A stretch of 42,786 bases of DNA, from NCBI GenBank assembly GCA_938091805.1, contig CALKGV010000014.1:1-42786 (forward strand). Reading direction: 5' to 3'. Position numbers and translations under genes: made by a program. A model generated the notes under the pieces. That model saw only the letters and a list, made by a program, of their open reading frames with translations. It was not told the DNA's origin and did not search any database. Below, one piece after another: positions 22,061 through 38,820 of this stretch. This stretch comes from an uncultured archaeon (lineage in GTDB: Archaea; Thermoproteota; Bathyarchaeia; Bathyarchaeales; DTEX01). Within the stretch, counting starts at the first letter, position 1. Every line of letters begins with the position of its first letter.

Positions 22061-22780
22061 TTACACTTCCTTTATGTATTTCTCAACTTCTTCGTCAGAC
22101 AACATTCTAAACCGTCTGGTTGAGGCTGGAACAACGGATATTTTGATTCTAGGCTGTTCGCCCCTAGCCTGCATCGACTTAATTAAGCATTTAACTCCAA
22201 GCTTTATGGCTTCTTCAAGTGTTAAGTCATCACGGTACTCTTCCCTAAGCACGTTCTCAGCGGTTTCACGGCCAATTCCTATAGCAACAGCCTTATATGC
22301 CCTATATGTTCCGCTCGGGTCCGTTGTAAAGAGTTGGCTTCCGCTCTTATCGACTCCGGCGAAAATTATGGAAACGCCAAAGGGCCTGACTCCAGCATGC
22401 TGTGTGTAAAGCTGTTTTATGTCGCCTATTCTTTTTGCAACAACCTCTACATCCACCGGTTCATCGTACATGAGCCTATTGCTCTGAGCGAAAACTCTGG
22501 CCTCATCGATCAATATTCGTGCATCAGAGCTTAAGCCGACAACTGCGGCTCCAATGTGCTCATCAACTTCATATATTTTCTGAGTGAACTTTGGATTCTG
22601 CAGTTTAGACTCAATTTTTTCCTCAGCCCCTATAATGACCCCCTCGGGACATGTTATACCTATAATGGTTGAGCCCCTATAAACTGTTTCCAATGCGTAT
22701 TCAACTTGGAATAATCGGCCATCTGGGGAAAAAACTGTGATGGCTCTATCATATGCTCCTGGAACCGCAAAGACAGACAA
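22061..22780 (-). CDS. psmA: Proteasome alpha subunit
   Basis: This protein forms the outer gate ring of the archaeal 20S proteasome. Signature sequences are YDRAITVFSPDGRLFQVEYA, GSTIIGITCPEGVIIGAEEK and the pore-side PFGVSIIFAGVDKSG. The 239 aa are standard, and no catalytic Thr is expected in alpha. The start is TTG 22780; GAGGGTG lies about 10 bases upstream, and an out-of-frame ATG seven bases before the TTG opens a 12-codon reading frame, as in the layout at rpoB. It is the first gene of the 18-gene array. Confidence 0.95.
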   Translation of the reverse strand: MSVFAVPGAYDRAITVFSPDGRLFQVEYALETVYRGSTIIGITCPEGVIIGAEEKIESKLQNPKFTQKIYEVDEHIGAAVVGLSSDARILIDEARVFAQSNRLMYDEPVDVEVVAKRIGDIKQLYTQHAGVRPFGVSIIFAGVDKSGSQLFTTDPSGTYRAYKAVAIGIGRETAENVLREEYRDDLTLEEAIKLGVKCLIKSMQARGEQPRIKISVVPASTRRFRMLSDEEVEKYIKEV

Positions 22781-22899
22781 TTTTCATATCACCCTCTCTT
22801 CCATCATCAAATCTTTCTCTTCTCTTTGAGAAGTAGAAGATGAAACTAAAAAACCTTTTGCATTTATTTTTTCCATTTAACTTTATTTTTTTCCCATGC

Positions 22900-23060
22900 C
22901 TATTTCCTTTTCCTAAAGACCTTGACGCTGTCAATGTCGCATACTATTCGAAGCCGACCTCAACGAGCCTCCTAACCTCATCAACGGTTTTGGCAACCGC
23001 TGTGTGTGAGCCTTTCTAGACTGTCCTTTCTAACCTTTTCAGCGTAGACCTCTTTATATC
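22900..23060 (-). pseudogene. Probable tyrosine-integrase C-terminal relic
   Basis: On the minus strand the sequence reads HTAVAKTVDEVRRLVEVGFE, meets TAG, and with a one-base shift continues CDIDSVKVFRKRK and stop. Joined as GFEYVCDIDSVKVFRKRK, it resembles the extreme C-terminus of archaeal tyrosine recombinases (recalled pattern, not searched). The N-terminal catalytic part is not found. If correct, it is the scar of an integrated element. Its downstream end lies in the psmA leader. Confidence 0.35.
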
Positions 23061-23064
23061 CACT

Positions 23065-23300
23065 GGGTTTTGAACCCGGCTGGAAAGGTTGATCCACTGA
23101 ACCTAGCGTCTGAACCGTTCAGGTAGACCAGCCTAGAAGACTAGGTTCGGCGGATCAAACCCATCCTGGAAATACAGGCTCTGCCAGGCTGAACGTTTAG
23201 GACCTAGTATGCTAGGTGATCCTAAACAAGCATGATCCTTGGATCTAGAAGTCTAGGTCCGTCTGCTAGGATATCCTGAATGTTTAGGTTGGATCACGCG
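23065..23300 (+). repeat. Cluster of hairpins with imperfect ~80-base repeats
   Basis: Four hairpins follow each other: 23065-23077 (GGGTT/AACCC); 23087-23161, where GGTTGATCC, GAACCTA and GTC pair with GAC, TAGGTTC and GGATCAAACC around an inner hairpin; 23195-23227 (GTTTAGGA and CCTAG pairing with CTAGG and TCCTAAAC); and 23241-23260 (GGATCTAG/CTAGGTCC). A CTGAA(C)-GTT-(C/T)AGG motif recurs at 23110, 23189 and 23276. The region is richer in G and C than its flanks and has no ORF. It may be a structured RNA, since one U-G pair fits plus-strand transcription, or a mobile-element end. I cannot match it to RNase P or SRP RNA. Confidence 0.55.
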
Positions 23301-23405
23301 GGGAAACATTATTTTCCAAAAACGCCTAGCCACAACCGTTCAAATAATAATTTTTAGCAAAATCTGTTAAAGATGCATTTTTCTGGGCTGAAACAAAAAG
23401 AGGAG

Positions 23406-23666
23406 TTAAATGCGGGAGAAATCTCCACGAAGAATCGAAATGGTTTTTTCAGCGGTTAATACGCATTTTAGCAGATCATCAATCGTTGATAGTAGGGTTG
23501 CAATATTGTCGCCATAATACTTTATGGTTGTAACAACTTTTCTATCTATCTTCTGCGTCTCCACAATTAATCCATTGGGAGTTTCCGCATTATCAGGCGA
23601 GACGGCCTTAAATATGGCTTCCGCCTCCGCCTCATCATCGTAGACGAGCAATATTTCAGCTTCCAC
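23406..23666 (-). CDS. Pcc1-like protein (second copy)
   Basis: This 86-aa protein has the same compact alpha-beta pattern as Pcc1: AEILLVYDDEAEAEAIFKAVSPDN, then VVTTIKYYGDNIATLLSTIDDLLKC. A gene of this kind is commonly found beside the archaeal RecJ-like gene and S15, and it differs clearly from the pcc1 at 18030-18290. It may be a KEOPS-related subunit or a partner of the DHH nuclease; its exact role is not established. It overlaps the DHH gene by 11 bases, indicating coupled expression. A short oligo-T run after its stop could end the transcript. Confidence 0.75.
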   Translation of the reverse strand: MEAEILLVYDDEAEAEAIFKAVSPDNAETPNGLIVETQKIDRKVVTTIKYYGDNIATLLSTIDDLLKCVLTAEKTISILRGDFSRI

Positions 23667-38800: not shown

Positions 38801-38820
38801 CCTAGCATACTAGGACTAGT
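38801..38820. repeat. CTAG hairpin shared with the 23.1-kb locus
   Basis: CCTAGCATACTAGG forms a hairpin and its reverse complement occurs exactly at 23203-23216. The palindrome ACTAGT follows directly. The 330-base gap holding it also contains the transporter dyad at 38708-38733 and the nikR promoter. Confidence 0.45.

Follow-up and report, generated by a model that had tools for sequence, protein, structure and literature searches.

In the parts of the literature available to us, the Caudoviricetes proviruses described from Bathyarchaeia (PMC10848311, PMC11705971) carry a tyrosine integrase at one border and are linked to tRNAs in their integration. The locus reported here resembles them in the integrase remnant at one border, in the tRNA 3' fragments that adjoin other copies of its second border, and in the terminase, portal and major head protein found in a related virus contig, but differs in being a 570-bp scar only and in lying at a non-tRNA site. 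No mention of a hairpin array or of a border palindrome was found in the accessible portions of those two papers. The locus lies in a 42,786-nucleotide stretch (the window; contig C14) of a 1.71-Mb metagenome-assembled genome (MAG) from Bathyarchaeia, and was originally marked as an unassigned cluster of hairpins at 23065-23300. This cluster is very probably what remains of the distal, non-coding end of a head-tailed archaeal provirus that has since decayed (Table 1), and the origin of the enclosing insertion as a provirus remnant is well supported.

Table 1 Features of the psmA-pcc1 region in the window.
Feature	Position	Strand	Details and basis
psmA, proteasome alpha subunit, intact flank	22061..22780	minus	
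Whole insertion between psmA and pcc1, ~570 bp	22867..23436	.	Empty sites in G003 and G001
Integrase C-terminus remnant, tyrosine type	22900..23006	minus	Stop codon 22900-22902, frame broken; tblastn with intact 400-aa paralogue (PF00589)
Remnant similar to C-terminus of ORF C98:3919-4239	23008..23067	minus	65% over 20 aa, E = 0.01
Small hairpin GGGTTTTGAACCC	23065..23079	.	Resembles tRNA T-arm on minus strand; tRNA not detected
Region common to second copy, contig C31	23085..23361	.	77% identity
Long layered hairpin	23087..23158	.	Outer arms TTGATCC / GGATCAA, inner CTGAACCGTTCAG and CCTAG-AAGA-CTAGG
Hairpin CCTG-GAAATA-CAGG	23165..23178	.	Fold
Palindromic hairpin ACCTAG-TATG-CTAGGT	23202..23217	.	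Fold
Hairpin GGATCTAG-AAGT-CTAGGTCC	23241..23260	.	One U-G pair on plus strand; sequence and fold
GTGATCCAACCTA, start of array unit	23285..23297	minus	
Distal proviral end: palindrome TGGAGATTTCTCCCGCA and polypyrimidine/T tract	23391..23436	minus	
pcc1-like gene, last residues and stop codon now from insertion	23406..23666	minus	...TISILRGDFSRI vs ...TISVVKNI

The serial hairpins are real: the 236-nt segment folds with a minimum free energy of -94.8 kcal/mol (z = -5.31), a value equalled by one of 200 shuffles. A GC-corrected scan of the window ranked bin 23101 first in structure on the plus strand; on the minus strand the top two ranks went to bins 23001 and 23101, and folding of a slightly larger segment was equally strong there (z = -4.7 to -6.2). 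As in the preliminary description, the cluster has no ORF, the motif CTGAA..GTT(C/T)AGG lies at 23110, 23189 and 23276, and full pairing of the stem at 23241-23260 requires the plus strand and a single U-G pair; this position is C-G in the second genomic copy, on contig C31. The imperfect repeats of about 80 bases proposed there were not recovered: the repeat finder reports no tandem repeat, the sequence between motifs is non-repeating, and the 13-nt palindromic motif alone recurs, at spacings of 79 and 87. Regular identical direct repeats of the CRISPR kind are absent. Homology to the C31 copy makes the array unit larger than first marked (23085-23361), and the whole is enclosed in the insertion at 22867-23436. 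An intergenic spacer elsewhere in the window holds a single CCTAGCATACTAGG palindrome (38801-38814) with the same sequence as array hairpins.

The two closest relatives (G003 and G001; psmA 98-99% identical) lack the entire block, having a short psmA-pcc1 spacer with 32 nt where the window has ~570 bp. Between the two identities first offered, a new structured RNA or a mobile-element remnant, this empty orthologous site, together with integrase and viral-gene debris, upholds the latter. On the pcc1 side the insertion extends into the coding sequence, and over 23406-23440 it supplies the last residues and the stop codon (...TISILRGDFSRI in place of the relatives' ...TISVVKNI). A CTAAAAA(A)CCTTTT block upstream of psmA (22842-22860), kept in nearly all relatives within the taxonomic order and probably the psmA promoter, ends just short of the insertion. 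Both gene remnants inside are short (20-25 aa). The 570 bp hold no viral structural genes, including capsid and terminase, which is consistent with deletion, and our claim is accordingly for a remnant rather than a provirus. No attachment-site direct repeat was found in the window, and the insertion site is not a tRNA.

Relatives of the two remnants connect them to head-tailed viruses. About 25 integrase matches, many fragmentary, occur in the genome, the intact one (C47) carrying the Phage_integrase domain (PF00589). At several loci the 3' end of the integrase leads into a tRNA gene or a 3' fragment of one (C8, tRNA-Pro; C62 and C67, junctions read by eye). Integrase relatives in IMG/VR virus contigs have 40-52% identity and lie mostly at contig ends. 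One such contig, L173, is head-tailed, encoding terminase, portal (PF06381), head protease, major head protein and integrase, and its viral ABC-ATPase/GNAT fusion protein is homologous to ORF C98:3919-4239 (E = 5e-16), to which the second remnant in the window is similar. At another proviral scar (L098, 3725-4891), a chimeric ORF fuses an integrase N-terminal zinc-ribbon fragment to an apparent zinc-type alcohol dehydrogenase.

The distal border is formed by a palindrome, TGCGGGAGA-NN-TCTCCA; on the plus strand, the insertion ends in TGCGGGAGAAATCTCCA plus nine more bases. A longer form, AAAAAGAGGGGGTTTGCGGGAGANNTCTCCAC, is present seven times in the genome with no more than three mismatches to its core, and at C31:7709, C7 and C67 variants are followed without a gap by the 3' end of a tRNA (for example GGTGGGTTCAAATCCCACC). 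In L173, 60 bp separate the integrase stop codon from the reverse complement of the palindrome, and in L174 a decayed form follows the integrase. Scanning 84,980 GTDB species genomes with TGGMGANNTCTCCCGCAAANNNCC gave 82 stretches (L175-L255), all from Bathyarchaeota or uncultured-archaeon MAGs except three from bacteria, probably chance matches, or four if one labelled Baldrarchaeota is counted. The T tract beside the palindrome, which was outside the search pattern, is 86-97% T at its core, and 18 of 79 loci have a T-arm in the 45 nt upstream of the palindrome, compared with 13 of 3950 positions chosen at random. At many palindrome loci in other genomes, the side on which the element should lie carries ordinary host genes, so some of these loci are probably solitary scars. 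From these associations we infer that the palindrome flanks the attachment core as an arm and so shows where integrated elements of this integrase group have their distal border. It may instead act as a plain gene terminator, but this would leave both the insertion boundaries and the tRNA fragments unexplained. In the window, the palindrome and T tract occupy 23411-23427 (TGGMGAYRTCTCCCGCAAAHYCCC-T6), a combination that is almost confined to Bathyarchaeia and in many cases joined to a 3' fragment of a tRNA; no description of it was found in those parts of the literature that our search covered.

The one clear second copy of the array, at C31:6136-6414, is 77% identical over 23085-23361 and also ends in the terminal palindrome, exactly where the neighbouring gene has lost its start codon. 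This copy has an independent empty site of its own: in relatives the start of a cyclase-like gene is AAATG|GTTAAAGATATA, and C31 has CTCCACAA|GTTGAGGAAATA, which places the insertion border exactly at the start codon. More distant arrays of the same style (CCTAG-N4-CTAGG, with TGATCC/GGATCA) occur on C98, C2, C1, C34 and C4. The pattern CCTAGNNNNCTAGG has 15 sites in the genome compared with none for a reversed control, and all four exact matches to the unit start GTGATCCARCCTA in the genome are in arrays. Identity between the C98 and C2 arrays is 78-79%; C31 and C98 show weak similarity. The genome was sampled as targeted stretches, in which arrays lacking the CCTAG-N4-CTAGG core may be missed; the approximately seven array sites so obtained all have a proviral-type context. 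On C31, C1 and C34 the array is just inside the palindrome, on C1 and C34 between the border and the end of a weakly portal-like gene (E = 0.03), on C4 it directly follows an integrase, and on C98 and C2 it follows small ORFs. Orientation relative to the border is opposite in C1 to that in the window and C31, and two proviral ends with a junction similar to that of C1 and C34 have no array (C34:2350 and C97). Presence or absence at the same place and opposite orientations show that the array is a palindrome module particular to this lineage and not one of the core genes of the virus.

The same features, with array bounds at TGATCC/GGATCA (read by eye) and congener arrays near tRNAs, would also suit an independent REP/MITE-like palindromic element, unrelated to the virus, that accumulates in proviral and tRNA-proximal debris. 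We regard this as somewhat unlikely, given the low copy number (~seven array sites), the lack of any target-site duplication seen at the arrays and the proviral-type setting of every array found in this genome. A derivation from IS5 or from insertion-sequence ends is a far weaker candidate and extremely improbable: the C31 copy does adjoin an intact IS5-type transposase, but the corresponding IS5 end matches ~38 places without an array, and the window copy has no IS5 sequence beside it. A match to insertion-sequence ends, which the preliminary description had named as evidence against its reading, thus does not account for the cluster. The IS5-type element is itself abundant, at C31:6680-7500 (L002 2087-2842) and ~38 other places.

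Beyond this genome the array was found in none of 100 related genomes, and no match to its DNA was obtained in GTDB species genomes, IMG/VR, phage or plasmid records, the GTDB and IMG/VR scans being for exact matches to one conserved block only. It was not found in any virus contig, is absent at the equivalent place in L173 and at most proviral-end loci of other Bathyarchaeia, and no unusual structure was seen inside the border in those genomes (mean z = -0.2). Its absence from virus contigs and most other proviral ends means that the link between array and virus could be secondary. The congener G007 has four loci with CTAG-hairpin arrays (L104-L107), whose sequences are related to these yet distinct. 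Each is located 3' of a tRNA gene, and two are nearly identical over ~200 bp. Since the border shows no unusual structure elsewhere and the G007 arrays lie 3' of tRNAs, a module settling at integration sites fits better than a viral core function. One such function, a replication or packaging signal made of tandem palindromes and kept beside the attachment site, would agree with clustered inverted repeats adjoining the genome end in several related proviral remnants, but it is improbable in view of the absence of the array from the equivalent place in L173 and from most proviral-end loci elsewhere. The tetranucleotide CTAG, with which the arrays are packed, is nearly absent from virus contigs L168 (0.33 per kb) and L174 (0).

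The idea of a new structured RNA fared less well than that of a mobile-element remnant. Rfam gave no match to the array at curated thresholds and nothing credible below them, there is no copy in the 100 related genomes, and compensatory change is slight: substitutions between the C14 and C31 copies are not concentrated so as to keep pairs, and there are two or three double compensations between these two close copies. A provirus could nevertheless encode a structured non-coding RNA, most likely on the minus strand, that of the neighbouring genes and the integrase. On that strand both copies fold well (-85.0 and -86.7 kcal/mol), the fold survives the observed substitutions better than it does random ones (z = -2.6 and -2.4; 3 and 4 of 300), and with the window fold as reference the changes give 11 G-U pairs compared with 3 A-C. 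This bias disappears with the fold of the other copy as reference (6 compared with 8), the C98/C2 pair shows no consistent strand for fold retention, only two close copies with few double compensations are available, and a homologue outside this genome and an Rfam match are both lacking. Retention of the minus-strand fold (z about -2.5) is weak evidence for RNA, being expected also of palindromic DNA. A conserved new RNA gene is therefore not supported, and an RNA encoded by the provirus appears quite unlikely. Two further identities were rejected. Parts of the region resemble tRNA arms (AGCCTGGCAGAGC a D-arm and GGGTTCAAAACCC a T-arm), but no tRNA was detected in the hairpin region by covariance search or ARAGORN, and the likeness would reflect chance or decayed attachment cores. 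For an integron attC array, the window array has one RYYYAAC and no GTTRRRY, and the C31 array none of either.

We return to the degraded provirus as the preferred reading. A tyrosine-recombinase virus would have used a non-tRNA site between pcc1 and psmA for its integration, and most of it would then have been lost. Still present are the integrase 3' end at one border, the viral ABC/GNAT gene fragment and the palindromic hairpin array inside, and, at the other border, the palindrome flanking the attachment core of this virus group. We propose that the array is a REP/MITE-like DNA repeat hitchhiking at proviral ends, with hairpins that act or persist as DNA palindromes, perhaps through mobilisation or template-switch correction. 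The hairpin module is real and lineage-specific; its function we infer. A bolder proposal, that a mobile hairpin palindrome module beside the attachment core and TGGMGAYRTCTCCCGCAAAHYCCC-T6 together constitute a new control region for integration or excision, working as single-stranded DNA or RNA, seems to us quite unlikely.

An apparent orphan RNA is in this way recast as an integration scar with known empty sites, at which a virus end can be seen to have rewritten the C-terminus of the gene for pcc1, a KEOPS subunit. The border palindrome may be useful as a tag for scars left by virus integration, and could help to locate proviral ends and the tRNAs targeted in an uncultured group with mostly unknown viruses.

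Integron attC arrays, including those of archaeal integrons (PMC9668308), are similar to the array in being hairpin-rich, recombination-associated DNA near a tyrosine recombinase; they differ from it in that attC core motifs are essentially absent here and there are no gene cassettes. With REP/BIME elements and MITEs the array has in common clusters of short hairpins, alternating orientation, location in spacers and multiple copies per genome, but it has far fewer copies, is restricted to one lineage and is tied to proviral ends.
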